NCBI RefSeq assembly: GCF_003094615.1
Contig: NZ_QDKO01000044.1
Location: 1 to 64,000, forward strand
Direction: 5' to 3'
Length of the DNA stretch: 64,000 nt
Origin: Caulobacter radicis
Lineage (GTDB): Bacteria > Pseudomonadota > Alphaproteobacteria > Caulobacterales > Caulobacteraceae
The first letter of the stretch is position 1. Each line of letters begins with the position of its first letter. The notes beneath the pieces were generated by a model. That model had not been told where the DNA came from and searched no databases. It saw only the letters and a list, made by a program, of their open reading frames with translations. This document shows, piece by piece, positions 15,148 to 61,672 of the stretch. A program made the position numbers and the translations under genes.

Positions 15148-17134
<1,987 letters not shown>

Positions 17135-42650: not shown

Positions 42651-42905
42651 CGTGCCACGTCGCTGAAAGCGCGGCGTCGAGGCGTGAGAACCTCGCTTGA
42701 ACCAACCGCTTCGCGTTCGGCTCCGCCCCGGCGCGACCGGTGTGTTGCGCCGGCGGCGCCGTCCATGACGGCCGCTCCACACTCAAGCTTGAGTCTCGGG
42801 AATGCGGCTTCGCCGGTTCCGCCGCCTCTCCTTGGAGGCGGACGTGACCGGGCCAGCAGAGACCAGACTTCAAGCCAGAACCCCTCGGCGCGGGAGCCCG
42901 CGCCG

Positions 42906-43448
42906 ATGACCCTCAAGACCGTCGATCCGGTCCTGGGCGAGACCCAGACCGACGCCCGCCGCAAGCTCGACGCGCTGTTCCGGCGCCAAGCTCCGGCCCT
43001 GCTGCGGTTCCTGTCGCGGCGGACCAATCCCGAGGAGGCCCAGGACCTTGCCCAGGAGGCCTTCCTGCGCCTGACCCATGCGGCAGGCAAGCAGGCCCTG
43101 CAGAAGCCGGAGGCCTATCTTGGCCGCATCGCCCGCAACCTGCTGCGCGACCGGGCCAAGAGCGTCTCGGGTCGCCGCGAGCGCAGCCACGCCGTTCTTG
43201 AGCCCGAGGCGCATGCGACGAGCGACGGCGATCCCCACCTGGCCCTCGAAGCGCGCCAGCTGCTCGAGCGCCACGAGGCCGCCGTCCTCAAGCTCAAGCC
43301 CAAGACCCGCGAGGTCTATCTGCGCCATCGCGTCGACGGCCAGACCTATCCGCAGATCGCCGCCGCCCTGGGCATCGGCGTCAGCGCTGTGGAAAAGCAC
43401 ATGATGAAGGCCATCGCCGCCGTCGACCGCAGCCTCGGCCGGCCCTAG
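42906..43448 (+). CDS. FecI-like ECF sigma factor of the lasso-peptide locus
   Basis: 180 residues from ATG 42906. Region 2: LLRFLSRRTNPEEAQDLAQE and RLTHAAGKQALQKPEAYLGR; region 4: LKPKTREVYLRHRVDGQTYP and LGIGVSAVEKHMMKAIAAVD. Followed by FecR and a receptor with an STN domain, giving the standard three-part surface-signalling chain. When the receptor binds its ligand, presumably the lasso peptide, FecR would release this factor to transcribe the uptake and isopeptidase genes. Confidence 0.9.
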   Translation: MTLKTVDPVLGETQTDARRKLDALFRRQAPALLRFLSRRTNPEEAQDLAQEAFLRLTHAAGKQALQKPEAYLGRIARNLLRDRAKSVSGRRERSHAVLEPEAHATSDGDPHLALEARQLLERHEAAVLKLKPKTREVYLRHRVDGQTYPQIAAALGIGVSAVEKHMMKAIAAVDRSLGRP

Positions 43449-43457
43449 GATCACGCC

Positions 43458-44423
43458 ATGACCTCGGGGGAAGAAGAGCATCTGCGCCGCGAGGCGGCCG
43501 CGTGGTTTGCGCGCATGCGCGGACCTGGCGCGGAGACCGCGCGCCCTGACTTCGACGCCTGGCGCGCCGCGCCCGGCCGCCAGGACGCCTATGACCGTTT
43601 GGTCCGGCGCTACGAAGAGTCGGCGATCCTGGGTCATTCCAAGCTCTCGGACCTGCGCCTGCGCACTAGCGCCTCGCGTCGGGGCCCGCCGCCCGCGGCG
43701 TGGTGGGCGGCCAGCGCCGCCGGCCTCGTTGTGGCCATCGCCCTGGCCACCGTCTCGCCCTGGCCGATCTTTCCCGACGATCAGCCGCCACAGCAGCGGC
43801 TCGCCGCTGGAACCGGCCAGATCCGCAGCCTGTCTCCAGCGCCAGGTCTCACCGTGGTGCTCGACGCTGACACCGTGCTGCTGGCGTCCAGCGAGCGCGG
43901 CCGCTCGCGCCTGGTCCTCGAACGCGGACGCGCCCGCATCCACGCCCGGGGTCCGGTGGATGTCCAGGCCGGGGCCATGCGCGTCATGGGCCAGGACGCG
44001 GCCTTTGATCTCAGCCTCAGCGAGCGGTCGGTCGAGGTCTCCGCCCTCTCCGGGAGCCTGGAGGCGCGGCGCGACCGGCATCCCCTGATCTCGGGCCGCA
44101 CCCGCCTTCAGCCGGGACAGGCGCTGATCCTCGCCGACGACCGCCTGGGCCCGCCGACCCGCGCCGCCGGGCGCGAGCGCCAGTGGCCCCAGGGCCTGCG
44201 CCTCTACCAGGACACCCCGCTCGCCGAAGTTCTCACCGACGCCAATCGCTACGGCGCCCGCAAGATCCGGCTGGCCGATCCCGCGCTGGGGTCCCTGCAG
44301 GTCAGCGGCGCCTTGAAGGTCACCGATCCGGACGGCCTGGCCCGGGCCCTGGCCGCGGCCCTGTCGCTGACGGTGACCCAGCTCCCGGGCGGCGACCTGG
44401 CGCTGTCGCGCCGCGGGGCGTGA
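43458..44423 (+). CDS. FecR-like anti-sigma factor / signal transducer
   Basis: 321 residues. The cytoplasmic N-terminus has DUF4880-like features (REAAAWFARMRGPGAETARP, DFDAWRAAPGRQDAYDRL). One membrane helix at about 82-100 (AWWAASAAGLVVAIALATVS). The periplasmic part contains the FecR domain (IRSLSPAPGLTVVLDADTVL, DVQAGAMRVMGQDAAFDLSL) and a C-terminal STN-like segment that contacts the receptor. Starts nine bases after the sigma-factor stop. Confidence 0.9.
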   Translation: MTSGEEEHLRREAAAWFARMRGPGAETARPDFDAWRAAPGRQDAYDRLVRRYEESAILGHSKLSDLRLRTSASRRGPPPAAWWAASAAGLVVAIALATVSPWPIFPDDQPPQQRLAAGTGQIRSLSPAPGLTVVLDADTVLLASSERGRSRLVLERGRARIHARGPVDVQAGAMRVMGQDAAFDLSLSERSVEVSALSGSLEARRDRHPLISGRTRLQPGQALILADDRLGPPTRAAGRERQWPQGLRLYQDTPLAEVLTDANRYGARKIRLADPALGSLQVSGALKVTDPDGLARALAAALSLTVTQLPGGDLALSRRGA

Positions 44424-44525: not shown

Positions 44526-47487
44526 ATGCAACACCACACCACCCTTCTACGCCGCGGCCTGATGGCCACGGTCGCCGGTCTCGTCCTGACCGCCGCCGCG
44601 CCGGCCCTGGCCGCGCCGCCCCTCCTGCAGGCCGAGCACCAGACCTATGACCTGCCCGCCCAGCCGCTGGGCGAGGCGCTCGGCGCGGCGGCCCGGATCA
44701 GCGGCCGCCAAGTGGTGGTCGCCTCGCCGCTGGTGCGGGGCAAGACCGCCCCGGCGCTGTCGGGCCGCTACACCGCCGACCAGGCCTATGCGGCGCTGCT
44801 CTCCGGGTCGGGTCTCAAGCTCGTCCGGGTGGGCGCGACGCTGGTGCTCAAGCCCGCCGACGAGACCGCGCCGGGGGAGGTCCGCGCCGGTGACGAACCC
44901 GAAAGCCTCGCCGAGGTCGTGGTCACCGGCACCCGCATCCGCGGCGCGGGGCCCGTGGGGGCCAACGTCATCGCCATCAGCCGGCAGGACATCGAGGCCA
45001 GCGGCTACGCCACCACCCAGCAGATCGTCCAATCGATACCGCAGAACTACGGCGGCGGCCCCAACGAGGGCACCCTGTACGGAACCGGCCGCAACGGCGC
45101 CAGCGCCAATCTGGGCGCGGGCTCGGGCGTCAATCTGCGTGGCCTGGGCGCCAGCTCGACCCTCGTGCTGCTGAACGGCTCGCGCCCGCCGATGGGCGGC
45201 CGCACCGGGGTGTTCGCCGACCTTTCGCTCGTGCCCGCCTCGGCGATCTCGCGGATCGAGGTCCTGGCCGACGGCGCCTCGGCCCTCTACGGCTCCGACG
45301 CCGTGGCCGGCGTGGTCAACGTGCTGTTCCGCGACGCCTACCAAGGCCTGGAGACGCAAATGCGCCTGGGCGGGGCGCAGGGCGGAGCCGCCGAACGCCA
45401 GTTCGGCGCCCTGGCCGGGCGGGCCTGGCCGGGCGGTCGCCTGGTCGCCGCCTACGAGGTCATGCGCCGCGACGCGCTGGCCGCGGCCGAGCGCCCCTAC
45501 GCGACCTCGGACCTGCGCCCCTTCGGCGGGCCGGACTATCGCTCGGTCTATGCCGCGCCGGGGACCATCGTCGCCGGCGGCCAGACCTTCGCCATCCCCG
45601 CCGGCCAGAACGGGGTCGGACTGCGCGCCGGCCAGCTGTTGCGGGGCTTCGTCAACCGCGAGGACGGCCGGCTGGACACCGACATCCTGCCGCGCCAGAC
45701 CCGCCAAGCCCTCTACGCCAGCGGCGAGCAGGACCTCGGCGCGGTGACCCTGTTTGGGCAACTGCTCGTCGCCGACCGGCGCTTCGCCTTCCGCAGTCCG
45801 ACGGTGTCCCAGACCGCCACGACCGTGCCGGTCGCAAATCCGTTCTATGTCGATCCGATCGGCACGGGCCAACCGGTGCGGGTCCAGTACAGCTTCGTTG
45901 GCGACCTTGGCCCGCAGATCTATTCGGGCCACGTGCGCGCCTACAACGCCACGATCGGGGCCCGCGGCGAGATCGGCGCCTGGTCGCTCTCGGCGCGAGC
46001 CGGGTACGGTCTCCAGGAGGAGGCCAGCCTGACCAAGAACTTCCTCAACACCTATCGGCTGGGCCTGGCCCTGGCCGACCCCAATCCGGCGACGGCCTAC
46101 AATCTGTTCGGCGATCCGGGCTCGACGCCGCAGGCGACCATCGACAAGGTGCGCGGCTTCGCCTTCAACCACGGTGTCTTCGAAGCCTGGTCGGCCGACC
46201 TGAGGGCCGACGGACCGCTGCTGACCCTGCCGGCGGGGGGGGGTCCGGCTGGCGCTCGGCCTGGAGCACCGGGACGAGCGCTATCGGCTGGACAGCCTCA
46301 ACGACATTGGCGGCGCCGTTGCGTCGGCCAGCACCCTGGCCCTGCCAGGCCCCCGCAAGATCGATGCGGCCTATGCCGAACTGCGCGCGCCCCTGGTCGG
46401 GCCAGAGGCGGAGGTCCCGCTGGTGCGGCGGCTGACCCTGTCCCTGGCCGGCCGTATCGAGCGCTACAGCGACTTTGGGACCACTCGTAACCCGAAGGTC
46501 GGGCTGGACTGGTCGCCGGTCGGCGACCTGACGCTGAAAGCGGCCTACGGGACCGCGTTCCGCGCGCCAAGCTTCAATGACCAGCGCCAGGGCATCGGCA
46601 GCACGCTTTACCAGCCGGCCGCTCTGGTGGACCCGGCCTCGCCCACGGGCAGCACCGTGGTGCTAGCCCTGATCGGGAACCGGCCGGGGATCGGCCCCGA
46701 ACGCGCTCGCACCCTGACCACGACCGCCGAATGGACGCCGCAGGCCGTCGCCGGCCTGAAGGTCACCGCCAGCTACTTCCGGGTGCGCTATCGCGACCGC
46801 ATTTCCAGCATCAACGCCGACATCTTCAACGCTCTGATCAACCGGGCGCGCTACGCCGACCTGCTCACCGAGGCTCCTAGCCCCGAGGTGGTCGCGGCCT
46901 ACTATGCGAGCCCGTACTTTTCCAATCCGGGCGCGATCCCGGCCGCCAACGTCAAGGTGATCGTCGACGCCCGTGTCCAGAACCTGGCCGTCGTCGACGA
47001 GGACGGCGTTGATCTCGACATCGCCTACGGCCGTGCGGTCGGCGCGGGACGTCTGAGCCTTGGGCTGTCGGCGGCCTACATCTTCAGCGTCGAGCAAGCG
47101 GTGTCGCGCAACGCCGACCCGGCCGAAACCCGCGGAACGGTCGGCAATCCGCTGCGGCTTCGCGCCAGGATGCGGGCCGGCTGGAGCCAGGGGGGCTGGG
47201 ACGCCAGCGCCTTCGTCAACTTCGCCGACGGCTACCGCAACCAGACGGTCACGCCCTACGAGAAGGTCGACGCCTGGACGACGCTCGATCTCAACATCGG
47301 CTACCGCTTCGCGGCCGACCGGGTCGGCCTCTCGGGCCTGCGCGCGGCGCTGTCGATCGCCAATCTGCTCGACCGCGATCCGCCCTATGTCAATCTACGC
47401 ACCTCGACCTCCGGCATCGGCTTCGACAGCGACAACGCCAGTCCGATCGGTCGTTCGATCGCGCTGCAGGTCACCAAGTCGTGGTGA
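44526..47487 (+). CDS. STN-type TonB-dependent receptor, frameshifted in a G9 tract
   Basis: Signal peptide, then an STN domain at about 40-110 (YDLPAQPLGEALGAAARISG), TonB box LAEVVVTGTRI, plug (NLRGLGASSTLVLLNGSRPP, VEVLADGASALYGSDAVAGV) and barrel. At 46235-46243 a run of nine Gs shifts the frame; with eight, LPAGGVRLALGLEHRDERYR would read on to the C-terminal IGRSIALQVTKSW at 47487. Uninterrupted it would be about 986 residues. As written, translation ends at 46490 without the last third of the barrel. Presumed lasso-peptide receptor. Either a sequencing slip or phase variation. Confidence 0.85.
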
Positions 47488-49475
47488 GCCTGATCGCCTG
47501 GGCGGCCGCCGCGACGATCGCGTCGGCGCCTCCCGCGCCGCCGACGCTGAGCGACCTCGTCGAGGTCGTGGACATCTCGAGCCTGGCCGTTTCCCCCGAC
47601 GGCCGGTGGGCGGCCTATCGCCAGGAGCAGAGCTCGCTGGCGCGCAACGCCAAGCTCCTCAGCTGGTGGGTGGCCGACCTGCAGGGGTCCGGACCGCCCC
47701 GGCGCCTGGCCGAAGGCGGGGAGGCGCTGTGGACGGACGCTGGAACCCTGCCGGCCGAACCGCCCCTGTGGTCGCCAGACAGCCGACGCTTCTATGTGCG
47801 GGCCCTGGTCGATGGGGCCGTGCAGGCCTGGTCGGTCGATCTGGCCGACGGCGGGCGCAGGCTCACGAGCGAGGACGGAGACATCGCCGATCTGGCCCTG
47901 GTCGAAGGCGGCGCGCGCCTCAGCTTCACCGTCGGCGCCAGCCGCGCCGCCGTCCGCCTTGCCGAGCAGCGGCAGAAAGACGAGGGCGTCCTCATCGACG
48001 CCAGCATCGACCCTGCCCAGAACCTCTTCGATGCGGCGCCGGTCAATGGCCGTCCGGCCGCCCAGCGCCTCACCGGCCGCTGGTTTCGACGCCAGGGTCT
48101 GCTGGCCGCGGCGCCCCGCATCCGCAAGTCGGTCCCGGCGGCGGGCGGGCCGGTTCGGACGGAGGACGACCCCGTTGCGCTTGCCGGCGACGGCGCGACA
48201 CGCGGCAAGGCCGCCGCCTCTCCCGACGGGTTCGGCATGGCGCGGCTCGCCGACGGCCGCCTGGATGTTACGCGGCCCTCAGGCGAGGTCGTCGCCTGCC
48301 GGGTCGCCGACTGCGCGTCGGTCAAGGCTCTGGCCTGGCGGCCCGGCGCTGACGAACTGGTGCTGACGCTGGGCGACTCCGCCCGCCGCCAGCGGCTGGC
48401 CGTCTGGCGGCCCGGCCGCGCCCAGCGGCCCGGGCCGTTGCGCGCTTTGGCGTCGAGCCAGGGGCTGATCGGCGGCGGGGCGGCCGACACGCCCTGCGCC
48501 TTGACCGCGACGACGGCGGTTTGCGTGGCGGCCGAGCCGACGACGCCGCCTCGGTTGGTCTCGATCAACCTTGCTGGAAAGCCGCGGACCCGGGTCCTCG
48601 CCGCCCCGAACCAGACCCTCGACGGCGCCGCCAAACCCGGGGCGCGCCTCTTCGAATGGCGCGCCGCCGACGGGCGGGCGTTCGCCGGCTGGCTGATGCT
48701 GCCGGCTGGGCCGCCCCGGCGCAGTCCCTTGTTCGTGACCTACTACCTCTGCGAGGGCTATCTGCGCGGCGGCTTCGGCGACGAGTTCCCCCTCGGAGCC
48801 ATGGCGCAGGCCGGGGTGGCCACGCTCTGCATCAACAAGGCCTATCAGTCCGAAGCCAGTCACGATCCCGTCGCCGACTATCGCACCGGCCTGTCGGCGG
48901 TCCAGGCCGCCGTGGATCGCCTGGCGACCGAGGGGCTTGTCGACCGCGCAAGGATCGGCATGGGCGGTTTCAGCTTCGGGAGCGAGGTGACGACCTGGAC
49001 GGCGATGAACAGCAATCTGCTGGCGGCCGCCTCGATCGCCTCCACGCAGATGGAGCCGGCCTATTACTGGCTGAACGGCGCGGCCGGGCGGGACAACCAC
49101 GCCGTGCTCAAACGGAGCTGGGGGCTGGGCCCGCCCGAAGAGACGCCTGAACGCTGGAAGCTGATCTCGCCGGCCCTCAACGCCGCCAGGATCCGCGCGC
49201 CCTTGCTGATGCAACTGCCCGAGCAGGAGTATCGGCTGAGCTTCGAACTTTTCGCGCGGCTCTCCAACTCCGCCACGCCGGTCGACCTCTACGTCTTCCC
49301 CGAAGAACCGCACATGAAGACCCAACCCCGCCATCGCCTGGCGGTCTATCAGCGCAACCTCGACTGGTTCCGGTTCTGGCTGCAGGGCCATGTCGATCCC
49401 GATCCAACAAGGGCGGGGCAGTATGCGCGCTGGTCGCGGATGGCCCAGCGAAGGGCCGCGGCCGGCGCGCCGTGA
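47481..49475 (+). CDS. lasso-peptide isopeptidase-like S9 hydrolase
   Basis: 664 residues from GTG 47481 (overlapping the receptor stop; GTG 47484 also possible). N-terminal leader and beta-propeller (LAVSPDGRWAAYRQEQ, LWSPDSRRFYVRALV), C-terminal alpha/beta hydrolase with nucleophile Ser in MGGFSFGSEV (about residue 498) and His in FPEEPHMK. Homologues next to lasso clusters of Caulobacter, Asticcacaulis and Sphingomonadales (AtxE type) specifically open the ring isopeptide bond of the cognate lasso peptide. It probably recycles or detoxifies imported peptide in the periplasm. Confidence 0.88.
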   Translation: MVSLIAWAAAATIASAPPAPPTLSDLVEVVDISSLAVSPDGRWAAYRQEQSSLARNAKLLSWWVADLQGSGPPRRLAEGGEALWTDAGTLPAEPPLWSPDSRRFYVRALVDGAVQAWSVDLADGGRRLTSEDGDIADLALVEGGARLSFTVGASRAAVRLAEQRQKDEGVLIDASIDPAQNLFDAAPVNGRPAAQRLTGRWFRRQGLLAAAPRIRKSVPAAGGPVRTEDDPVALAGDGATRGKAAASPDGFGMARLADGRLDVTRPSGEVVACRVADCASVKALAWRPGADELVLTLGDSARRQRLAVWRPGRAQRPGPLRALASSQGLIGGGAADTPCALTATTAVCVAAEPTTPPRLVSINLAGKPRTRVLAAPNQTLDGAAKPGARLFEWRAADGRAFAGWLMLPAGPPRRSPLFVTYYLCEGYLRGGFGDEFPLGAMAQAGVATLCINKAYQSEASHDPVADYRTGLSAVQAAVDRLATEGLVDRARIGMGGFSFGSEVTTWTAMNSNLLAAASIASTQMEPAYYWLNGAAGRDNHAVLKRSWGLGPPEETPERWKLISPALNAARIRAPLLMQLPEQEYRLSFELFARLSNSATPVDLYVFPEEPHMKTQPRHRLAVYQRNLDWFRFWLQGHVDPDPTRAGQYARWSRMAQRRAAAGAP

Positions 49476-49498: not shown

Positions 49499-51229
49499 TC
49501 AGCGACTCCAGCTTCGCGCCCACAGTTCGGCGTCGACCAGCCGCAGAATGCTCATGAAGCGGGCCTGGGTCATTTCCACCGGCTTGCGCAGGGTGGCGGC
49601 GACACCGTCGAGGTCGAGCAGGCTCTCGCGGGCGAGGAGACCCTCGGCGAGCATCGGCCCGATGCGATCGCGGTTGGCCTCATAGGCGGCGGCGACGAAG
49701 CTGTTGATGCGTCCCTTGGAGCGGCGGTTGAGGACGTCGGCGGGAAGCAACGCGGCAAAGGCGCGCCGGGCGATCGCCCGGTCGCGTCCACCGGCCACCG
49801 ATAGCCAGGTGGGGATGGCGAGCGCCAGTTCGAGCACCGGCTGGGCCATGTGCGGCGACACCACGGTGGCGGCCACGCTGCGATCATGGCCATCCATGTG
49901 CGCATGAACGCCCAGAACCGCCTGAACGTGACGGCGCTTGCCGGGCGGGAGGCCGGCGAGGCCGTCCTGCCAAGGATGGTGGGGGCTGGCGACCTGCCGC
50001 CAAGCCGGGGCCAGGTGCTCGAGATCCGGCGACCTGGGCGGATCCTGGCGACGCAGGCCGATCTTCAGGGCCAAGCGCGCCACGGTCCAGGCGTTCGCGC
50101 CCGTCAGGCTGGCGACGTCCATGATCGTCGTCATCACACCTGGGCTAAGCCCTTGCGCCCTGAACCGGTCGACGACGGGCGCGGCGGAAATGAAGTAGCC
50201 GAACACGCTGTCGCCGCCCGCGCCATTGAAGAAGGCGGAGGCGCGATGCTGTCGGCCCTGCTGCTGGAAGGCCGCATCCACCGACTGCAGGACGGTCGGG
50301 CGCCCCGGTCGGGCCAGGCGGGCCAGAGGCGGCGCAGAAAAGTCGATGTCCCCCGCGTCCAGGACGAGTTCGGTCAACGGCAGACCGGCGGCTCGCGCGA
50401 CCTGCCGCGCATAGCGCCGCTCGTCGCCCTCTGGCCCGATGGTGGTGACATTGACCGCGAACGCCGCGACGCGTTCCCTCAGCGCCAGGGCCACGATCGA
50501 GGAGTCAAGGCCTCCGGACAGCTCGACGATGATCGGACCTTCGGCCGCCGCCAGCGCGGCGACGCTGCCTTCAATTTCCGCGAGCAGCCGTTCGGCCCAG
50601 TCGCCGGCCTCCAGGCGCGGCGCCGCCTCGATCACCTGGCTTGGACGCCAGAATGGGCGCGTCGACATCGCACCCTTGGGAGGGGCCGCCAGCGCGTCGC
50701 CGGGAAGGATCTCCTCGACGCCGACCAGGCCCGTCGCTGCCGACCGGGCGCCGCCGAAGGCGATATGACGGGCCAGATAGCTCCAGTCGATGCGAGGTGA
50801 AACCAAGCCCAAGGCGGCCGCCTGGCCCACATCGGAGAACAGCAGGTCCATCGGCTCGCGACGGATCCGAAAGGCCGGCAGATTGCCTGACGGATCTCGC
50901 GCGGCGACCATCCCGCCGGCCGGATCGACCAGAACGGCAAGGTATCGGCCCCAGTACGATCGGCTCAGTGTCTCCAGCACATCAGAGGTATCGCCGAGCC
51001 CCGCAGCCGTCCGCACGCGCTCGGGCCGCGCAGCGCGGGTGAAAAGCCGCCCGAACACCACCCCGCGCCCACCGGGCAGAACTAGGATTTCCTCGACCGG
51101 CGAGAACGCCGCCCAGGTCGGGCCCTGCGCCGCCAGCGGCAGCGTCGGGCCAAAGCCGCCGGCCTGGATCGCCTGGGTGATGATCGGCGGCGTCTCAGCG
51201 CGCCACAAGGCGAAGACGTAGCTCATCAC
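49499..51229 (-). CDS. lasso peptide macrolactam synthetase (C protein, asparagine-synthetase-like)
   Basis: 576 residues. The N-terminal half resembles a glutaminase-type domain without the catalytic Cys2 (MMSYVFALWR). The C-terminal synthetase carries the PP-loop ELSGGLDSS at 236-244 and FFNGAGGDSVFGY. In lasso biosynthesis this enzyme adenylates the acidic side chain at core position 7-9 and closes it onto the new N-terminus. The start codon overlaps the end of the B gene (ATGA). Convergent with the isopeptidase gene; the stops are 24 bases apart. Confidence 0.93.
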   Translation of the reverse strand: MMSYVFALWRAETPPIITQAIQAGGFGPTLPLAAQGPTWAAFSPVEEILVLPGGRGVVFGRLFTRAARPERVRTAAGLGDTSDVLETLSRSYWGRYLAVLVDPAGGMVAARDPSGNLPAFRIRREPMDLLFSDVGQAAALGLVSPRIDWSYLARHIAFGGARSAATGLVGVEEILPGDALAAPPKGAMSTRPFWRPSQVIEAAPRLEAGDWAERLLAEIEGSVAALAAAEGPIIVELSGGLDSSIVALALRERVAAFAVNVTTIGPEGDERRYARQVARAAGLPLTELVLDAGDIDFSAPPLARLARPGRPTVLQSVDAAFQQQGRQHRASAFFNGAGGDSVFGYFISAAPVVDRFRAQGLSPGVMTTIMDVASLTGANAWTVARLALKIGLRRQDPPRSPDLEHLAPAWRQVASPHHPWQDGLAGLPPGKRRHVQAVLGVHAHMDGHDRSVAATVVSPHMAQPVLELALAIPTWLSVAGGRDRAIARRAFAALLPADVLNRRSKGRINSFVAAAYEANRDRIGPMLAEGLLARESLLDLDGVAATLRKPVEMTQARFMSILRLVDAELWARSWSR

Positions 51230-51894
51230 ACCACCAGGATCGGCGTCAGCATGGCGGTTCGATGCAGGGACTCATTGAGCGCGCAGTCGCCCGATTGCGC
51301 CCAGGCGTGGGCCTCGAAGGGCGGCGTGGCGACGGCCAACACCACGTCGACGTCTATGCCCCTACGAGAGAGAAAATGCGCCATGGCCAGGGAGTCCAGA
51401 AGACATATCGGCGTCACTGGAACGAGACTGCGCACAGCCAGGAAGCGACGCGCCAGCGCCTCGGCCTGCGCGCTGCGCCCAGACATGCCGCCAGCGCGAC
51501 GTCGCCGCCAGCGCCGCCACCCGACGACTCGAGCAAAAGGGCGAAGGCGCAGCAACCAAAAGACGACAAGCACCGCCCAGAAGACCTCGACGACATCCAT
51601 AGCCGTCGCCCCCGAACGCTCGTGGGCGATTTCAAAGGCGCTGCGCGCGGGCAGCGTCCGCGCGCAGGGCGCCACCGGTTGTCCCCGGCCGTCCCGCACC
51701 AGGAGGCCCGCGGCGATCAGCGGCCCGAGGCCGGCCTCGTCGATGGGGCCGACGCCAGCGCCTCGCGCAAGCGCCGACAGGGCGACAGCCTGGGCCTGGC
51801 CCAGGCCAAGATAGCGATCGCGATTGAGGTCCAGGACCACGCCCAGGTCCGCGACCAGGCAGTAGGACACGCCCGGCGCCAGTTCGTAAGTCAT
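51226..51894 (-). CDS. lasso peptide B protein: RRE plus transglutaminase-like leader protease
   Basis: 222 residues. Residues 1-80 are a PqqD-like recognition element (YCLVADLGVVLDLNRDRYLG), fused here rather than encoded separately. Residues 95-222 form the B2 protease: Cys164 in TPICLLDSLA, His196 in PPFEAHAWAQ. The third residue, normally Asp in a LxD motif, appears as Asn207/Glu208 (CALNES), with Asp203 as an alternative. It would bind the precursor leader and cut it off before ring closure. Overlaps the cyclase gene. Confidence 0.9.
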   Translation of the reverse strand: MTYELAPGVSYCLVADLGVVLDLNRDRYLGLGQAQAVALSALARGAGVGPIDEAGLGPLIAAGLLVRDGRGQPVAPCARTLPARSAFEIAHERSGATAMDVVEVFWAVLVVFWLLRLRPFARVVGWRRWRRRRAGGMSGRSAQAEALARRFLAVRSLVPVTPICLLDSLAMAHFLSRRGIDVDVVLAVATPPFEAHAWAQSGDCALNESLHRTAMLTPILVV

Positions 51895-51942: not shown

Positions 51943-52077
51943 TCATTCGGGGTCCAGGCCCGTCTTGGGCTGTTCCTGCGAGAACTCGGGCATGGTGTCC
52001 GGACCGCCCCGGGTCCGAACGCTCACCGCACCCAGATCCAGCAGCGGATCGGGAACGAGGGTCACGATGGTTTCCAT
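51943..52077 (-). CDS. lasso peptide precursor A1
   Basis: 44 residues, too short for routine gene finders; AAGGAGG precedes the ATG at 52077. Leader METIVTLVPDPLLDLGAVSV-RTR has the required Thr at position -2. The 21-residue core starts GGPDTMPEF and ends GLDPE. Gly1 and Glu8 would form an 8-residue macrolactam ring with a 13-residue tail (FSQEQPK...). The tail resembles those of benenodin/caulonodin-type peptides. It sits immediately upstream of the B and C genes on the same strand. Confidence 0.88.
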   Translation of the reverse strand: METIVTLVPDPLLDLGAVSVRTRGGPDTMPEFSQEQPKTGLDPE

Positions 52078-52157
52078 GGCGACCTCCTTTTCACGAAAAG
52101 CCCGCCCCAAAGGGCGGACAGCTTGGCGGAACGGCGAGCCGCTCCGCCGGCGTCTGC

Positions 52158-52292
52158 CTAGTCGGCGTCGATCCCCGCGCGCGGCTGCTCCTCGGAAATC
52201 TCCGGGAGGACGTAGGGGCCGCCCTGCGTTTCCCGGCTGACGGCGCCCAGGTCGATCAGGGCGTCTTCGATATGGTCTTCGATCCGTTCCAT
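52158..52292 (-). CDS. lasso peptide precursor A2
   Basis: 44 residues from ATG 52292 with GAAGGAG upstream. Leader MERIEDHIEDALIDLGAVSR-ETQ, again with Thr at -2 and the shared LIDLGAVS stretch bound by the recognition element. The 21-residue core begins GGPYVLPEI and ends GIDAD; predicted ring Gly1-Glu8. It shares Gly1-Gly2-Pro3, Pro7-Glu8, EEQP/QEQP and a terminal G-x-D motif with A1. First gene after the GntR gene in the biosynthetic arm. Confidence 0.88.
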   Translation of the reverse strand: MERIEDHIEDALIDLGAVSRETQGGPYVLPEISEEQPRAGIDAD

Positions 52293-52386: not shown

Positions 52387-53022
52387 TTATTCCGCAGGGC
52401 GCCGCGGGTCGCGGTCACTGAGGCCATGGAGGCTGCGGACGATCGCGGGCACCAGCCGCAGGCGGCGGCGGTGATAAGCGACGAGCGCCTGACGCAGCGC
52501 CGTGGATGACCCGGCGGCGGCCAGGCCTCGCAGCTCCCGGGTTTCGTCCTGAAACTCGGGGACCAGCTCCAGCTCGGCGCAGCGCGAGCGATGCAGGCGA
52601 TCGCTGGCGCCGGCCACGGCCCACTCGACCTCGACATTGCCGCTGCGGGCGGCCAGGCGCGCGAACAGGTCCTCAAGGGCTGTGATCGGACCATCGCCCT
52701 CGGGAGCGTCAGGCGAGATAGCCGTCTCGCCGCCGGCCGACCTTGCGGCGTTGACCAGAAGAGCGACGTTCCATTGGTAGAGGTCCGACAGGTCCGGCTC
52801 CGTCAGACGGGGAACAAGGAAGCCCTCGCCAGGCAGGGCGGTGAGCAGCCGCTCGCCCACTAGGCGATGCAGGGCCGCGCGCACCGGCGTGGCGCTGGCC
52901 CCGAACCGCCGCGAAAGCGCGGGGACGTCGATGCGTTCGCCAGGCCGCAGGGCGCTCTCAGACAGCAGGAAGGTCTTGATCGAGAGGTAGACGCGTTCAC
53001 CGGTGCCGGGCCGATCAATCAT
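52387..53022 (-). CDS. GntR-family regulator of the lasso cluster
   Basis: 211 residues from ATG 53022 (AGGGAG nine bases upstream; a GTG eight codons earlier lacks one). The N-terminal winged helix (VYLSIKTFLLSESALRPGER, PALSRRFGASATPVRAALHR) is followed by a helical FCD-like domain (SDLYQWNVALLVNAARSAGG, DRLHRSRCAELELVPEFQDE). It reads into the precursor genes, with 94 bases between its stop and A2. GntR regulators accompany several isopeptidase-type lasso clusters; effector unknown. Confidence 0.82.
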   Translation of the reverse strand: MIDRPGTGERVYLSIKTFLLSESALRPGERIDVPALSRRFGASATPVRAALHRLVGERLLTALPGEGFLVPRLTEPDLSDLYQWNVALLVNAARSAGGETAISPDAPEGDGPITALEDLFARLAARSGNVEVEWAVAGASDRLHRSRCAELELVPEFQDETRELRGLAAAGSSTALRQALVAYHRRRLRLVPAIVRSLHGLSDRDPRRPAE

Positions 53023-53209
53023 CAGGCTTAACTCCCTGGACGCCACGCAACGCAGCGCGCCGAAAGGCGGGCCGCTGTCGCCAGGTCCTGTCGCGCCAGG
53101 TCCTTTCGTCCGTGGTCCGCCAAAGGCGGCGTGAGGATGGAAGCATCGATCGCCGATGGCTCCTCCCCGAAATTCCTCCGCGAATTTTGGGGGGTGGATT
53201 TTCCAGGAC

Positions 53210-53980
53210 CTAAAGCAGGCCCAGGGTCCGGAAGCTGGCGACCGTTTCGGCGCCGACGATCAGGTGATCATGGACGAGCACGCCCAGGGCCTTGCCGCCG
53301 CTGGCGACCGCGCGCGTCATCTCGATGTCGGGCTTCGAAGGCGTGGGGTCGCCCGAAGGATGGTTGTGGGCCAGGACGAGGGCGCTGGCCCCCGTCTCCA
53401 GGGCCCGCCGCAGGACCTCACGGACATAGACCGGCGCATGGTCCACGGTGCCCTTGCCCAAGGCTTCGGCCAGGATCAGCTGGTTCTTCCTGTCCAGAAA
53501 AGCGGCCCAGATCTCCTCTCGCGGCAGGCCTCGGAGCTTGGCCCGGAAGAAGGCGGCGACCGCCCCGAACGAAGACATTACCGGCCGCGCGCTCAGCGCC
53601 GCCAGGCTGACCCGGCCGGCCGCCTCGCGCAGGATCTTGAAGTTGAGGATGGTCGCCTCGCCGACGTGGCGGCGCAGTTCGGCGCGGTCGGCGGCGAGCA
53701 CGCCGGCCAGGCCGCCGAACCGCTCGACCAGACGCACGGCCAACTCGCAACCTTCGGTCCGTTCGTCCGGGGCCAGATGCAAGTGAAGAATCTCGGCGTC
53801 CTGCATGACGTCGACTCCGAAGCGCGCGGCGAAGTCGAGGACCTTCTGGCGCGACGGCGCCCACGCCACCGGGGTTTGGGGCGTGAAGGGGCAGGGCTTG
53901 GCCATCGTCTCCAGCACAGTGGCGGTCTCGGCGGTCTCGGGGGCGACGGCGACGGCGGTGAGGGCAGGGGAGGCGGACAT
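53210..53980 (-). CDS. radC: RadC-family JAB/MPN protein
   Basis: 256 residues. The C-terminal JAMM motif is complete: ALVLAHNHPSGDPTPSKPDI followed by EMTRAV, with the upstream Glu in PREEIWAAFLDRKN; the helix-hairpin-helix region precedes it (LAGVLAADRAELRRHVGEAT). RadC-like proteins are common on plasmids and integrative elements near replication or transfer genes and are thought to act on DNA, though their activity is unsettled. MAKPCPF at residue 26 is an alternative start. Confidence 0.9.
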   Translation of the reverse strand: MSASPALTAVAVAPETAETATVLETMAKPCPFTPQTPVAWAPSRQKVLDFAARFGVDVMQDAEILHLHLAPDERTEGCELAVRLVERFGGLAGVLAADRAELRRHVGEATILNFKILREAAGRVSLAALSARPVMSSFGAVAAFFRAKLRGLPREEIWAAFLDRKNQLILAEALGKGTVDHAPVYVREVLRRALETGASALVLAHNHPSGDPTPSKPDIEMTRAVASGGKALGVLVHDHLIVGAETVASFRTLGLL

Positions 53981-54057: not shown

Positions 54058-54939
54058 TCAGAGCTCGGCCTTGGCCGCCTCGTCCCAGTCGCCGAAGCCA
54101 GGCGGGGGCAGGGCGATCCGGGTCCTCACGCCGCCATCGCCCAGCGCCTCGGCCAACTGCCGGGCCGAGGCCTCGCCGCCAGGACCCCGATCGGCGGCGA
54201 TCAGCACCAGGCGCACGTCCGCGGGCGGCCGCCAGCGCCGCAGGTTCGAGGTCGACAGCAGCGCCCAGGCCGGAAGGGCGAACCGATGTCGGGCGGCCAG
54301 GGCGGTGAACACCCCTTCGGCCACCAGCAGATCCGGCCCCGCCGCATCAAGGCGCACGGCGCTGCCGGCCGGGATCAGGCCGACGGTCTTGCGCGGCAGG
54401 GTCAGGTCGATGGCGCGCCGTCCGCCGGGGGTCAGATAGGTGAGCTCGACGGCGGTGACCGTCCCGTCGGGACCCTTCACGCCGGCCATCAGGGCCGGGC
54501 GCGCGGCCCCTGTCGGCCGATAGACCGCGAGCGGCGCGGCCGGATGATGGCGCAGCGCGTCAGGTCCGGGGATGTCGCCCGCGACGCCGCGACCTCGGCA
54601 GTGGCGTTCGGACAGCGTGCCTGCGACAGGCCGGCCCTGGTCCCAAAGCCGCAGGGCCGCGTCGCGGCGCGCTGTGCGCCCCCGATCCGAAGCGGTCTCG
54701 ACCGGCGGCGCCGCCGCGGTCCAGTCTCCGGACGGTCCCAGCAAACCAAGGTTGCGCAGATGATCGCGCACCGCGCGCCAGTCGCCGCCCGCGAAACTAT
54801 GGACGATGACCCGGCCGTCGCGCTCCAGCAGCGACACCGAGCGATCGCGCCGACTGTGGCCGGGGGCGGGGATGTTGGCGCGGCGACCTCCGTCATAGAG
54901 GTCGCCGCCCAAGCGGCGGACGATGGCGCGCAACGACAT
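54058..54939 (-). CDS. plasmid Toprim/primase-like protein
   Basis: 293 residues from ATG 54939 (MSLRAIVRRLGGDLYDGGRR). The N-terminus resembles the CHC2-like/DUF7146 region found ahead of Toprim domains (NIPAPGHSRRDRSVSLLERD, IVHSFAGGDW). The Toprim part has DLLVAEGVFTALAA with its Glu and LIAADRGPGGEASARQLAEA with the acidic D-x-x-G pattern. Such proteins are encoded on many alphaproteobacterial plasmids next to radC and replication genes and probably prime or process plasmid DNA. Confidence 0.82.
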   Translation of the reverse strand: MSLRAIVRRLGGDLYDGGRRANIPAPGHSRRDRSVSLLERDGRVIVHSFAGGDWRAVRDHLRNLGLLGPSGDWTAAAPPVETASDRGRTARRDAALRLWDQGRPVAGTLSERHCRGRGVAGDIPGPDALRHHPAAPLAVYRPTGAARPALMAGVKGPDGTVTAVELTYLTPGGRRAIDLTLPRKTVGLIPAGSAVRLDAAGPDLLVAEGVFTALAARHRFALPAWALLSTSNLRRWRPPADVRLVLIAADRGPGGEASARQLAEALGDGGVRTRIALPPPGFGDWDEAAKAEL

Positions 54940-55076
54940 GGCAGGACTCCTCGGCCGCATCCGGCGGCCCGCCCGTCCAAGCCCTGGCTTGGCCTTTGTC
55001 ACGGCGGCCCCTCAAGCGCTCCGGCCGGGCGTCCGCGCCCCGGGCCGGTCCGGCGCAGCGACAGGCGCCCGCCGCT

Positions 55077-55175: not shown

Positions 55176-55192
55176 AAGGTTGGAGACACGCC

Positions 55193-56866: not shown

Positions 56867-58129
56867 CTAGTCCCTGCGCGAGGAGGGCGCTCTTGGCGGC
56901 GCCTTGGCCAAGCGATCCTTGAGCCCATAGAGACTGGGCAGGAGCTTCAGGCCGCCGAACCGCTCCCGTTCGCACATGGCGCGCAGATAGCCGCCGGCCG
57001 AGCTGCGGATCTCCCCATCCTTCCAACGGGCCAGCACGGTGGCCAGGGCTATGGCGGCCCTGTTCCTGCCCATGGCCTCGCGCGCTTCGCGCACGGCCGA
57101 CAGGTTGATCCCCATCAGCAGCGCGGCCCGGCCGACCGCGTCGACCAGGTCCTCCCACTGGGCTGCGGACGGATCGGCCAGGAAGTCGTCCAGCTCGGGC
57201 ACGGCCTCGAGCACCAGCGACAGCGGGATGACCTCCTGGCTGATCGCCGCCTCCACCATGGCCGGGTCGGCCTCCGCCGCCCGGCGGGCCGATCGCGCCG
57301 AGGGCTCGACTACCTCCTTTCGAGGAGAGGAATACGTTGCTCCTGCGGATCTAGGCTGGGTTGTAGGTTCTTTCTGGGCTTCGTCCACGACGCCCCTGGG
57401 CTCATTTTGAATGGATTTGCGAGCCTTCACCCAGGCCGCGTCCACCGCCGCCAGCAGCGCCTGGAACGTCTCATGTAGCGCCTCAAGCTCGCCGAGGCTG
57501 GGGGTTCGCGGCAGGCGGCCGAGCGCCTGGTCGACCGCCCCGGCCCAGTCGTAGGTCGTAAAGCCCCGATGCACGGCGTCGGCGCAGACGGTGCGGATCT
57601 CGCGACGGATCTCCCCGAGCTTGCGCTTGAGATGCCGGCGCTGGGCCTGCTCAAGTCCCCGCGCGGCGGCCAGGTCGGCGAACTCGTCCCAGCGCGCGGC
57701 CATGGGCGCCAGGTCAAAGCCGAAGGCCTCGACGATGTGGCCGCGCTCGTCGCGATAGCCCCAGCGCTTGCCGTTGCCGCTGTCCTTCATGTGCACCAGG
57801 CCCGCGCGGACCGCCAGGCGGATCAGGCCCTGGACGCAGCTGCGCGAGCGCTGCAGCTCCTCGCAGAGCGCATCGTTGGACGGCCAGGCCAGGGGATGGG
57901 TGCGACCCGTCCAGTCCTGCTCGGCGGTGACCCGCACCAGGGCGCGGATCAGGCGCACGAGCCCGTCGCCGTACCCCAGACGGGGCGCGGCGCGCTCGAA
58001 CCGGTCAAGCAGCATGGCCTTGGAGACGCCCTCCGGCAGGCCCTGGTAGGTTTCGGCGAGCCTTGCGGCCGCCCACTGGGCGTCCGCCAGACGGCGCACG
58101 TCTCCTACCCCGTTCGAGACGGTCTGCAT
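56867..58129 (-). CDS. repC: replication initiator RepC
   Basis: 420 residues; the ATG at 58129 follows CAAGGAGGAG. Matches alphaproteobacterial RepC: YQGLPEGVSKAMLLDRFERA, HPLAWPSNDALCEELQRSRS and VQGLIRLAVRAGLVHMKDSG (winged helix), then a C-terminal WKDGEIRSSAGGYLRAMCER segment. RepC initiates replication of repABC-type and repC-only plasmids, usually at an origin inside its own gene. No repA or repB lies upstream; only a ParB-like fragment exists far away. A probable antisense RNA covers the leader. Confidence 0.92.
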   Translation of the reverse strand: MQTVSNGVGDVRRLADAQWAAARLAETYQGLPEGVSKAMLLDRFERAAPRLGYGDGLVRLIRALVRVTAEQDWTGRTHPLAWPSNDALCEELQRSRSCVQGLIRLAVRAGLVHMKDSGNGKRWGYRDERGHIVEAFGFDLAPMAARWDEFADLAAARGLEQAQRRHLKRKLGEIRREIRTVCADAVHRGFTTYDWAGAVDQALGRLPRTPSLGELEALHETFQALLAAVDAAWVKARKSIQNEPRGVVDEAQKEPTTQPRSAGATYSSPRKEVVEPSARSARRAAEADPAMVEAAISQEVIPLSLVLEAVPELDDFLADPSAAQWEDLVDAVGRAALLMGINLSAVREAREAMGRNRAAIALATVLARWKDGEIRSSAGGYLRAMCERERFGGLKLLPSLYGLKDRLAKAPPRAPSSRRD

Positions 58130-58677: not shown

Positions 58678-59898
58678 TCAAGGGGATGACCCGCCTTCCG
58701 GCGGCAGGACGAGGTCGCGGTCGATCAGCACCCGGACAAGCTGGCCAGGCGCGATGCGCAAGGTCGGCGCCCGCTGCAGGTCGCGCTCGACCAGGCGCTG
58801 GCCGCTCTGGCCGGCCGAGGCGGCGACCCCGCCGGCGGCGTCCTGCAGCACGACCCGGTCGCCCCGTCGGCCCGCGCTGTTCTGCGCCGCCGCGCCGCCG
58901 ATCGAGATCAGGGTCGAAAGCCCGATGGCGCGGGCCAGCACCGGCAGGTGCCGATCGGTCTTGCCAGAAAGGCCGCTCATCCCGGCCGCGTCGAGCCCGA
59001 CCATGGCGCCCAGATCCACGCTGCGGCCGCTGGGAAAGACCATCTGCGTCCAGACCACCAGCACCCGGTCCTGGCCATAGCCCACCTGGCTGTCGTAGCG
59101 CCCGATCAGGCGCGTCCCCTGCGGGATCAGGACGGTGCGCCCGGTGCGGTGATCGAACACCGGCTCGGTGACTTGGGCGATGACCGGTCCGGGCAGGTCC
59201 GAATTGATCCCGGTGACCAGGGCCGCCGAGACCAGAGCCCCGGCCTTGACCTCAAAGGGCGACAGGGGCGACCGCGGCAGGATCGGGGCCAGCGGCCCGC
59301 GCGTCGCCGCCGCGGCGATGAACTGCTCCCTGGCCGATGTCGAAGACGGCGGGGCGGGCGCCCCGTTCGGGCTTGCGGGGGCCAGGGTCGCCGGCGGCGC
59401 GGCGGGATCGAGCGCCTCGGCCGATGGCCGCGCCGCCGTCGCGCCGCCGGTCCCATTGAAGAAGGGCGGCGAGGCCCGGGCGGCCAGGCGTTCCTGGCGG
59501 GCTTGCTGGACCTCGGGGGAGACCGGCGCGGTCGGCTGCGGCGCCGCGGGCGCCGCGGCGCCTGGCGAGGCCCCCGCACCCGTGGACGCGCCGAGCGGCG
59601 CGGGCAGGGCGGCCGGATCGTCGTACCGGGCCGGCAGGCGCGCCTCGATCGGCGTGGGTCCGTCCGCGGCGCGCGCCTCCGCCTGGGGCGCCGGCGCTCG
59701 CCGGGCCGGGCCCTGGCCCATGCCCAGGATGAACCCGGAGCCGATCACCAGGACGATGACGCCGGCGACGGCGGCGATCGCCACGGGCCGATAGCGCGTG
59801 ATCGGCCGGCGCGGGGCGACCAGGACCCCTTCGGCCGGTCGCTTGGACGCTGCGCCCGCCGCGGCGGCGGGATTGGAGACCGGCGGCTCGACGCTCAT
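58678..59898 (-). CDS. trbI: conjugal transfer protein TrbI (VirB10-like)
   Basis: 406 residues from ATG 59898 (MSVEPPVSNPAAAAG). One membrane helix at about 38-58 (RPVAIAAVAGVIVLVIGSGF), a long Pro/Ala-rich periplasmic linker, and the C-terminal VirB10 barrel domain: SPFEVKAGALVSAALVTGIN, GRTVLIPQGTRLIGRYDSQV and RTPTLRIAPGQLVRV-like PTLRIAPGQLVRVLIDRD. It spans both membranes in the type IV mating pore. Last gene of the trb operon; it overlaps trbG by four bases. Confidence 0.95.
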   Translation of the reverse strand: MSVEPPVSNPAAAAGAASKRPAEGVLVAPRRPITRYRPVAIAAVAGVIVLVIGSGFILGMGQGPARRAPAPQAEARAADGPTPIEARLPARYDDPAALPAPLGASTGAGASPGAAAPAAPQPTAPVSPEVQQARQERLAARASPPFFNGTGGATAARPSAEALDPAAPPATLAPASPNGAPAPPSSTSAREQFIAAAATRGPLAPILPRSPLSPFEVKAGALVSAALVTGINSDLPGPVIAQVTEPVFDHRTGRTVLIPQGTRLIGRYDSQVGYGQDRVLVVWTQMVFPSGRSVDLGAMVGLDAAGMSGLSGKTDRHLPVLARAIGLSTLISIGGAAAQNSAGRRGDRVVLQDAAGGVAASAGQSGQRLVERDLQRAPTLRIAPGQLVRVLIDRDLVLPPEGGSSP

Positions 59899-60986
59899 GG
59901 ACGCGGCTCCTGTCGGGTCAGCCGCACCACAATCGGCTTCTTGTCGCCCAGGCGCAGTTCGGCGCGGTCGATGATCCGGTCCACGACCAGGTAGCGGCCC
60001 AGGAGACGCGAGTTGACCAACAGGGCCTGATCGTCGGCGTCGAGCAGGAAGACGGGCGGGGCCTCTCGCACGGCCAGGTCGGGCGGAAACTCGATGTAGG
60101 TCTTGGTTCCGTCGTCGAACACCCGCACCGGCGTCCAGGGCGGGGCCCGGCCCTTCAGGGGCGCGACCCGATAGCGAAAGTCCAGGCGCTCGACCGGCAC
60201 GGCGGCCTGGACGGCCTCGTTCGCCTGCTCGGCCGCGGCGCGGCGCGCGGCGTCGGCGGCCCTGGCCCGGGCCTCTTCCTGCGGATAGGTCCAGGACAGG
60301 ACGCTGGTATAGGCGCCGCTGTCGGTGGAGACCGCATCGATCAGATAGGTGCGCTGGTCGGTGGTCAGCACGAGGTTGGTGCGCAGGCCGCCCCGCATCG
60401 GCTTGACCAGCACGATGACCTGCTGGGCCTGGCCGGTCCCGGCTTCTGTCTCGCCCAGCACCCAGCGCACGGTGTCGCCGGCCGCCTTGGCGATCAGCTT
60501 CTCGCCGGGCCGCAGCGCGATGGTGGTCAGGAACCTCGGGCTGGTGTGGATCGCATAGAGCCGGCCCGGCTCGAAGGCGTGATAGAGCGCGGCGTTGACG
60601 AAGACGCCGCTGGCGGGCCCGGCGCGCGCTTCGGCGTTGGCCCGCTGCAGGGTCGCCAGCGGCTTGGCCAAGGCCAGGTTCGTCCCGGACCGTCGGCGCG
60701 GCCCCCTGGATTGCGCGGGCGCAGCGCGCTGGGTCGCGCCGGCGAGCGGAGCGGCCGGCATGGGGCTCGCCTTGGCCTGCTCGACGGGGCCGACGCCCGC
60801 TCCCCCGGCGCTCTGGGCGTGACCGGTGGTCCGGAGGACCGGCGGCAGGACTGCGGGTCGGGGGCTCTGGGCCTGGGATGACGGCGGCGCGGACGGCGGG
60901 GCGGACGACGCCGCCGCCAAGGGCGCGCAGGCCAGGGCGGCCATGAGGGCCAGGGCGCGGCCGGGAAGGGTGATGCGCAGGCTCAT
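59895..60986 (-). CDS. trbG: conjugal transfer protein TrbG (VirB9-like)
   Basis: 363 residues from ATG 60986. Signal peptide MSLRITLPGRALALMAALAC, a Pro/Ser-rich stretch, then the VirB9/CagX domain: RLYAIHTSPRFLTTIALRPG, ETEAGTGQAQQVIVLVKPMR, LDFRYRV, VRVFDDGTKTYIEFPPDL and LVNSRLLGRYLVVDRIIDRA. Outer-ring component of the transfer channel, partner of TrbI. Overlaps trbF and trbI by four bases each. Confidence 0.95.
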   Translation of the reverse strand: MSLRITLPGRALALMAALACAPLAAASSAPPSAPPSSQAQSPRPAVLPPVLRTTGHAQSAGGAGVGPVEQAKASPMPAAPLAGATQRAAPAQSRGPRRRSGTNLALAKPLATLQRANAEARAGPASGVFVNAALYHAFEPGRLYAIHTSPRFLTTIALRPGEKLIAKAAGDTVRWVLGETEAGTGQAQQVIVLVKPMRGGLRTNLVLTTDQRTYLIDAVSTDSGAYTSVLSWTYPQEEARARAADAARRAAAEQANEAVQAAVPVERLDFRYRVAPLKGRAPPWTPVRVFDDGTKTYIEFPPDLAVREAPPVFLLDADDQALLVNSRLLGRYLVVDRIIDRAELRLGDKKPIVVRLTRQEPRP

Positions 60987-61672
60987 AGGTCGCGGCTCCA
61001 TTGGAAGCTGGTGATTTCCAGGCCCCGGGCGTTGTCGAAGAGCTCGGCCTCGGTCCTGGGCGGCCTTGGCGCGATGCTGAACAGGCCCGTCCAGCGCACC
61101 GGCGGGCCGGCCACGCCCTGCAGGTAGGTCGTTTCGCGCCATTGGACCTGGAAGGTGGTCGGGCTGCGCGCAAGCACCGAGGCGATTTCGACGGAAACCG
61201 CCTCCTGGCCCAGGCGCGCGGCCGGGTCGTGCTCCTGGCCGTACTGGACGAGGCTGGCGCGCGCGCCCTGATTGGTCATCCGCGTGGCCCGCGACCAGTT
61301 CTCCCGCAGGACCACCGGATCGGTGCTCTTGGAGCGCACGCGCTCGACGAAGTCGCAGACGAAGCTGGCCTTGATGGCCTCGTCGGGCCTGTAGGCGCGG
61401 TCGGCCAGCTCGACCCGGCCCGGGCGTCCGTACCGGTCGATCGGCACGACATAGGTCGCGATCGGCCGTCGCAGCTGTACATAAAGAAAGGCGCTGGTGC
61501 TCAGCATCGCCAGCGCCAGGCAGCCGAAGGCCATCAGCCGCCAGTTTCGCGCCTGCACGCGCGCCGAGCCGATGCGGTCGTCCCAGACCTGGGCGGCGCG
61601 ATGATACGGCGTCTCCTGCGGCGTGGACTGGCCATAGCGGTCCTGCGGGCGCTTGAAGGCGTTGGACGTCAT
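60983..61672 (-). CDS. trbF: conjugal transfer protein TrbF (VirB8-like)
   Basis: 229 residues from ATG 61672 (MTSNAFKRPQDRYGQ). Short cytoplasmic part with PYHRAAQVWDDRIGSARVQA, one membrane helix (LMAFGCLALAMLSTSAFLYV) and a periplasmic NTF2-like domain (YVVPIDRYGRPG, IKASFVCDFVERVRSKSTDP, FQVQWRETTYLQG). Assembly factor of the inner-membrane complex. Confidence 0.95.
   Translation of the reverse strand: MTSNAFKRPQDRYGQSTPQETPYHRAAQVWDDRIGSARVQARNWRLMAFGCLALAMLSTSAFLYVQLRRPIATYVVPIDRYGRPGRVELADRAYRPDEAIKASFVCDFVERVRSKSTDPVVLRENWSRATRMTNQGARASLVQYGQEHDPAARLGQEAVSVEIASVLARSPTTFQVQWRETTYLQGVAGPPVRWTGLFSIAPRPPRTEAELFDNARGLEITSFQWSRDL

Follow-up and report, generated by a model that had tools for sequence, protein, structure and literature searches.

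Bases 1-64000 of the 80567-base contig NZ_QDKO01000044.1 from Caulobacter radicis (the window hereafter, G000 among our loci) carry a lasso peptide locus built of two modules with separate histories. The framework consists of a GntR-family regulator, the promoter and leader of the first lasso precursor (A1), the STN signaling domain of a TonB-dependent receptor, a FecR-like anti-sigma factor and a FecI-like sigma factor, and the cassette consists of the A1 core, the second precursor (A2), the maturation proteins B and C, an isopeptidase, and the plug and barrel of that same receptor; RadC, encoded nearby, was treated as backbone. The border between the modules runs through the A1 gene and through the receptor gene, leaving each with one constant and one variable half. 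We favor the reading, at a probability of about 0.8, that this is a plasmid locus in which homologous recombination replaces the whole cassette at once, the cassette being wired to constant signaling. Exchange of the cassette between plasmids is well supported, and homologous recombination is its probable agent. The first-pass annotation of this DNA had described the two precursors; that their cores are part of a swapped cassette goes beyond it and is the larger point. The locus is laid out as follows.

42684..43448, plus strand: FecI-like extracytoplasmic function sigma factor, framework (PF04542, PF08281); true start probably within the open reading frame (ORF)
43458..44423, plus strand: FecR-like anti-sigma factor, framework (PF04773)
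44526..47487, plus strand: TonB-dependent receptor with N-terminal STN signaling domain, frame broken (PF07660, PF07715, PF00593)
44919..44945, plus strand: left module junction, the TonB-box-like VVTGTRIRG, between STN (residues 62-111) and plug (residues 146-263)
47481..49475, plus strand: Atxe2-family lasso peptide isopeptidase (NF033523, 578 bits; alignment to AtxE2, 5txc)
49499..51229, minus strand: C, asparagine-synthetase-like lactam cyclase (PF00733, 101 bits)
51226..51894, minus strand: B, RRE-like N-terminal domain fused to a B2 cysteine protease (NF033537, 72 bits; AlphaFold/Foldseek)
51943..52077, minus strand: lasso precursor A2, 44 residues (23-residue leader METIVTLVPDPLLDLGAVSVRTR, 21-residue core)
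51946-52008, minus strand: A2 core GGPDTMPEFSQEQPKTGLDPE
52158..52292, minus strand: lasso precursor A1, 44 residues (23-residue leader MERIEDHIEDALIDLGAVSRETQ, 21-residue core)
52161..52223, minus strand: A1 core GGPYVLPEISEEQPRAGIDAD, cassette side
52218..52240: right module junction, A1 leader/core, codons about 18-25, where identity falls in G000/G142 and G254/G134
52224..52292, minus strand: A1 leader, 23 residues, framework side, its initial 54 nucleotides near-identical in 8 of 12 loci
52387..53046, minus strand: GntR-family regulator, framework (PF00392)

Matches to GntR at E <= 1e-30 were found in 12 of the 75 Caulobacter genomes searched, and the same 12 hold a benenodin precursor above cut-off, bearing out the earlier expectation of related clusters in Caulobacterales; G154, with a weak precursor match and no strong GntR match, is not among these loci. 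G266, G254 and G188 each have one ORF that lacks a lasso leader, and these three were excluded from the precursor count; the precursor filter missed the third precursor of strain FWC26, and B was taken from whole ORFs in three loci.

Compared in 250-base bins, the window is 94-99% identical to the DNA of C. endophyticus BI (G142) from 42.16 to ~44.95 kb and 93-98% identical from 52.25 to 54.0 kb (84% in the last, partial bin), but only 53-70% identical in the ~44.95-52.22 kb between them, and the edges are sharp. The proteins of this pair divide in the same way, with framework identities of 97-99% (sigma 98, FecR 98, STN 99, GntR 97; RadC 94%) against 58% for the plug, 54% for the barrel, 48% for the isopeptidase, 35% for C and 36% for B. 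A second near-identical pair, G254/G134, combines a common framework (sigma 99, FecR 98, STN 98, GntR 97, RadC 97%) with different cassettes (plug 58, barrel 54, isopeptidase 47, C 39, B 28%), and so does the older pair G064/G218 (sigma 81, FecR 77, STN 82, GntR 89, RadC 81%, against plug 56, barrel 53, isopeptidase 46, C 33, B 26%). The converse is seen in G064/G188, which have a cassette in common (plug 86, barrel 88, isopeptidase 71, C 74, B 63%) on differing frameworks (sigma 60, FecR 42, STN 52, GntR 62%).

Mantel correlations over the 12 loci (66 pairs; 10 loci for RadC, whose data set lacks G212 and G188) were 0.72 to 0.93 among framework genes, 0.73 to 0.96 among cassette genes, and -0.16 to +0.05 between the two blocks (p 0.34 or more), though STN and plug are parts of one protein. 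Framework and cassette trees had none of their five cherries in common; all five cassette cherries were supported at 100/99 or better, as were three of the five framework cherries. Approximately unbiased (AU) tests rejected all four framework groups on cassette data (p 7e-5 to 2e-72) and all three cassette pairs with finished tests on framework data (p 3e-8 to 1e-104), G142+G194 not being among them. These contrasts could be read as an ordinary, vertically inherited benenodin cluster in which peptide, enzymes and receptor evolve fast in place without exchange, as the cluster architecture is already known and most of the 66 pairs have divergent cassette proteins. However, synonymous divergence (dS) within G000/G142 is 0.88-1.79 and hence saturated in cassette genes, and only 0.04-0.11 in framework genes of the same pair, so fast protein evolution in place is no explanation. 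Such a history also sits badly with the conflicting cassette tree (AU p from 7e-5 to 1e-104) and with edges that are sharp and coincident in two pairs, and we consider it very improbable.

Both near-identical pairs have their edges at the same two intragenic places. The left edge lies at receptor codons 132-136 in window numbering (VVTG), and the window shifts from 100% G142-like to 90-93% like G203 (Caulobacter hibisci), G134 and G218 within some 120-180 bases (44.88 to 45.0 kb). The AlphaFold model of receptor residues 1-300 is poor (mean predicted local distance difference test score, pLDDT, 47), with STN alone confident and the junction inside the low-confidence residues 113-149, and gives weak support at best for a junction between STN and plug. 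The right edge lies at the A1 leader/core junction. Identities of the A1 core correlate with those of cassette genes (0.70-0.82, p <= 0.0004) and are uncorrelated with framework genes (-0.11 to -0.14) and with the core's own leader (-0.02). The leader (residues 1-18; gaps in three of the leaders were placed by hand) correlates with GntR at 0.55 (p 0.0002), more weakly with sigma, FecR and STN (0.17-0.27, p 0.02-0.04), and with the cassette at -0.09 to 0.10.

At the level of DNA, the initial 54 nucleotides of the A1 leader (52239-52292) average 94% identity (range 83-100%) when the six F1 loci are compared with the F2 loci G254, G203 and G134, which are three of the six F2 loci, G191, G188 and G212 having been left out for indels. 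Fourfold sites of GntR are just 49% identical in the same F1/F2 pairs, indicating that this stretch is kept alike as DNA in 8 of the 12 loci, and the loci with near-identical leader DNA include two whose GntR is just 63-65% identical to that of the window. The stretch is either an anchor of repeated recombination or under a nucleotide-level constraint. Between B enzymes, identity ranges from 24 to 63% (66 pairs), and A2 leaders vary; as a corollary, diverged B enzymes would have to read nearly the same A1 leader in 8 of the 12 loci.

The two 44-residue lasso-type ORFs exist where the first-pass annotation had placed them and lie on the minus strand, and both carry the features it named, namely Thr at -2, a core starting with GGP, Pro7-Glu8, a QP in the tail and an acidic C-terminus, with ring residues that differ (YVL in A1, DTM in A2). 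A1 reaches 50.3 bits (E 1.6e-13) with the NCBIfam model NF033522 'benenodin family lasso peptide', whose cut-off is 33, and A2, at 32.2 bits (E 7e-8), stays 0.8 bits short of that family; both pass the Pfam model PF24178 Subterisin (cut-off 27), with 44.3 bits for A1 and 28.9 bits for A2. These model scores put A1 and A2 beyond chance, and with adjoining B, C and isopeptidase genes and homologous precursors in relatives, the earlier prediction of two precursors with a Gly1-Glu8 ring is supported. The sequences thus support A1 and A2 as candidate precursors of two new benenodin/subterisin-type lasso peptides. A threaded product with a Gly1-Glu8 isopeptide bond would be expected from each, Thr-2, Gly1 and Glu8 being the parts of that design that can be read directly. 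Close relatives of both cores come from C. hibisci, GGPYVLPEISEEQPRSGIAAD for A1 (19/21 identical) and GAPSTMPEFSQEQPQSGLNQD for A2 (14/21 identical). Neither GGPYVLPE nor GGPDTMPE was found in the open-access literature searched, to which extent the anticipated lack of an identical core is borne out, and a PDB search with the A2 core gave no match.

B and C lie directly downstream of the precursors on the same strand, the GntR gene precedes A1, and sigma, FecR, receptor and isopeptidase are encoded on the facing strand. A precursor is thus accompanied by B and C genes that both score above cut-off (NF033537, PF00733), as in a lasso cluster. Searches with hidden Markov models found no RRE in the N-terminal part of B, and a sequence search of B against the PDB gave no match; its resemblance to an RRE is by fold alone, from an AlphaFold model (mean pLDDT 69) whose best Foldseek matches are TbiB1-leader complexes (probability 1.00/0.99, E just 0.055/0.098). 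The isopeptidase score exceeds the cut-off of 400 of the NF033523 equivalog and makes the enzyme Atxe2-type. Its residues S498, E583 and H611 align with S527, E610 and H638 of AtxE2 (5txc), and their equivalents are invariant across 12 proteins; we take the three AtxE2 residues to be the catalytic triad. The first-pass annotation suggested that the two peptides may have different partners; among the ORFs scanned with Pfam and NCBIfam, there is one receptor gene and one isopeptidase gene at the locus. No Rfam family was found within 42-54 kb. Five relatives retain the initial 22-40 codons of the sigma ORF (42684-42803) at 86-97% conservation, including where the frame breaks after them. This stretch is probably a conserved control region that precedes the true start of sigma.

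Beyond GntR, the window continues with plasmid-type genes.

53210..53980, minus strand: RadC-like JAB protein, plasmid backbone (PF04002)
54058..55002, minus strand: toprim/DUF7146 protein, plasmid backbone (PF23639, PF13362)
56867..58129, minus strand: plasmid replication protein RepC (PF03428, 152 bits)
58678..61173, minus strand: ORF containing TrbI, the match being in its C-terminal part (PF03743, 182 bits)
61684..62904, minus strand: TrbL/VirB6 conjugal transfer protein (PF04610, 126 bits)

Because repC and trb genes adjoin it, the window locus is probably plasmid-borne. The same locus is present on plasmid p1 of Caulobacter sp. FWC26 (298222 bp, typed conjugative), alongside repC, toprim, ParB and RadC, and on a plasmid of C. 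rhizosphaerae (231492 bp, typed non-mobilizable), alongside toprim, ParB and RadC; for the remaining loci, gene order or contig size alone points to a plasmid. We rejected an integrative element, as there is no tRNA in the window and repC and the plasmid layout fit better.

A mosaic could also come from assembly chimeras or contaminated bins, since several loci are from draft genomes or metagenome-assembled genomes and the frame of the window receptor breaks at a homopolymer. We find this hardly credible, as junctions lie within long contigs (G142 277 kb, G254 265 kb, G203 254 kb), identical edges recur in independent assemblies, and plasmid records have the same layout.

G142 continues to match the backbone, in blocks of 91-95%, as far as contig position 67.3 kb, and has 6.6 kb more than the window at 54.05 kb. 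A stretch of ~22.5 kb (about 19605-42158) is absent from the otherwise matching G142 replicon and holds a GH32 enzyme, a second TonB receptor, a DUF772 transposase, Ada and a RES-domain protein. Beside repC and toprim, 55139-56775 encodes a short helix-turn-helix-like protein followed by a HipA-like ORF (judged by eye), possibly a plasmid toxin-antitoxin pair. The plasmid contig also carries a GroEL-type chaperonin gene (15148-16767) with histidine-kinase genes nearby (13452-14996, 19687-20871), and a HEPN and nucleotidyltransferase fusion (1072-2103) close to the contig start.

Several observations weigh against replacement of the cassette as a unit, or limit what follows from it. Two of the five framework cherries had support of just 91/89, and the AU groups were picked after identities or trees had been seen. 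Over the whole cassette, G203 comes closest to the window at just 55-75% protein identity, and no recent donor was found; with donors this distant, single exchange events cannot be dated. No secretion gene was recognized at the locus. The receptor frame changes at a run of nine G (46235-46243) that is absent from the three relatives aligned there; a sequencing error, slippage or death of the gene could account for the break, and with its frame broken the window copy may import nothing; the receptors of G254 and G114 are likewise split into two ORFs. Outside Caulobacter the pattern is also weaker. A contig protein search with the window C alone gave no confirmed relative, and one with the isopeptidase alignment gave 46 loci (sigma found in 32 and FecR in 31 of them), none of which gave a clean swap outside Caulobacter. 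The 14 pairs that best combine similar frameworks with dissimilar cassettes all come from this genus, and the 14 opposite pairs include gammaproteobacterial ones (plug 69-81%, STN 16-44%), in a comparison that took receptors with and without STN together.

A second genus, coded g15, shows the two blocks again. It was analyzed with 10 of the 15 non-Caulobacter loci, all from g15, excluding G114 with its broken genes; the isopeptidases of G029 and G060 are unreliable (their ORFs match at 10 and 19 bits) and were left out of the final correlations. Mantel values were 0.87-0.94 within the framework, 0.79-0.97 within the cassette and 0.02-0.55 between blocks (isopeptidase 0.24-0.70, 7-8 loci); STN and GntR reached 0.36-0.55 against the cassette and 0.70 against the isopeptidase (8 loci). 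When G137, a member of a pair with everything in common, was dropped, the values were 0.87-0.94, 0.66-0.93 and 0.02-0.29 (isopeptidase 0.24-0.46, 7 loci), and those of STN and GntR with the cassette fell to 0.10-0.29 (isopeptidase 0.43-0.46, 7 loci), so the block separation in g15 is real but less clean than in Caulobacter. G029 and G075 have a common framework (73-82%) and different cassettes (plug 52, barrel 41, C 34, B 29%), and the reverse holds for G029/G060 (plug 76, barrel 68, C 62, B 47%; framework 29-35%). The g15 locus G149 carries the core GVGFGRPDSILTQEQAKPMGLDRD, which we take to be benenodin-1, and g15 is therefore probably Asticcacaulis.

Under replacement of the cassette as a unit, the framework would stay constant along a plasmid lineage and the cassette would be swapped whole between related plasmids through crossovers within the A1 leader and the TonB box, both of them conserved. 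The leader would be bound by the RRE-like part of B and cut by B2, and C would join Gly1 to Glu8. On the constant side, GntR, the promoter and the A1 leader would serve expression, and STN, FecR and sigma would form an output line; the exchanged part would set the specificity of the product (core, B, C), of intake by the receptor (plug, barrel) and of opening (isopeptidase), giving each plasmid one private make-import-open lasso chemistry tied to a common signaling output. The biological role may lie in import of the peptide through the linked receptor, signaling through STN, FecR and FecI, and selection for type diversity, and we give even odds to a private uptake or signal function of this kind. 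In a 2022 review (PMC9266682), the role of isopeptidase-containing lasso peptides is called enigmatic, and the isopeptidases tested open lasso peptides of their own cluster only, SpI-IsoP having opened just its own among 24.

If exchange is real, the peptides could instead be mainly siderophore-like cargo carriers, with the isopeptidase freeing the cargo inside and type diversity guarding against cheaters, as with pyoverdines. A siderophore-like role has been proposed (PMC9266682, PMC11006600) and agrees with the linked TonB receptor with its FecR/FecI and with pyoverdine types and receptors that also group together regardless of species (PMC11366639); any metal or other cargo is hypothetical, however, and no inner-membrane importer was recognized among the ORFs scanned, leaving the proposal somewhat short of an even chance. 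A bacteriocin role against relatives, with cassettes passed around as colicin or pyocin types are and with receptor and isopeptidase acting as immunity, would suit the plasmid setting, and the lasso peptide microcin J25 enters target cells via the siderophore receptor FhuA (PMC11006600). We hold it to be improbable, as no ABC transporter D of the microcin J25 kind was recognized in the 10 ORFs from sigma to GntR (Pfam and NCBIfam). An unlikely extension of whole-cassette replacement is that of polymorphic 'lassotypes', in which a private peptide-receptor-isopeptidase set would recognize plasmid kin, the FecI/FecR output would be constant, swapping would use the two intragenic anchors, and the A1 leader would serve as a near-universal adaptor for imported RREs.

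Block replacement of the core, maturation enzymes, isopeptidase and plug/barrel against a constant promoter, leader, STN, FecR and sigma tells the parts that must match from those that are generic, and the natural cassette/receptor chimeras make the role of these lasso peptides testable. The cassettes are akin to interchangeable lock-and-key sets, swapped at the same two intragenic spots, which points to a plasmid-borne type system resembling those of siderophores or pheromones. The natural junctions may also be useful for engineering, as the A1 leader seems to work with diverged B enzymes.

The cluster type, the precursor family and the isopeptidase are already known. Benenodin-type isopeptidase clusters of Alphaproteobacteria (benenodin, astexin-2/3, caulosegnin, subterisin) have a GntR regulator, precursor, isopeptidase, TonB receptor and sigma/anti-sigma pair in the same layout, as described in PMC9266682, and the window precursors match the benenodin and subterisin models. 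The window locus differs in its new cores, its probable plasmid location and its two-module history. Among the matches listed from the open-access literature, as far as their text was available and with subscription papers and preprints outside the search, there was no report of cassette exchange or of edges within A1 or the receptor. The agr and ComQXP pherotype loci of Gram-positive bacteria similarly have conserved flanks around a polymorphic signal-processing-receptor block, but they involve other proteins and another cell envelope, and signaling at the window locus is putative. The nearest analogue is the pyoverdine/FpvA system of Pseudomonas, in which peptide and receptor types go together independently of species phylogeny and the receptor has STN, plug and barrel, with type-discriminating regions at the plug (PMC11366639, PMC11444679). 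The window locus may at best work like this system and is not a member of it, as no nonribosomal peptide synthetase was found among the 10 ORFs scanned and the precursors are ribosomal; it would make a lasso peptide instead of a nonribosomal siderophore, has a linked isopeptidase, is probably plasmid-borne, and is divided by sharp edges between STN and plug and between leader and core.
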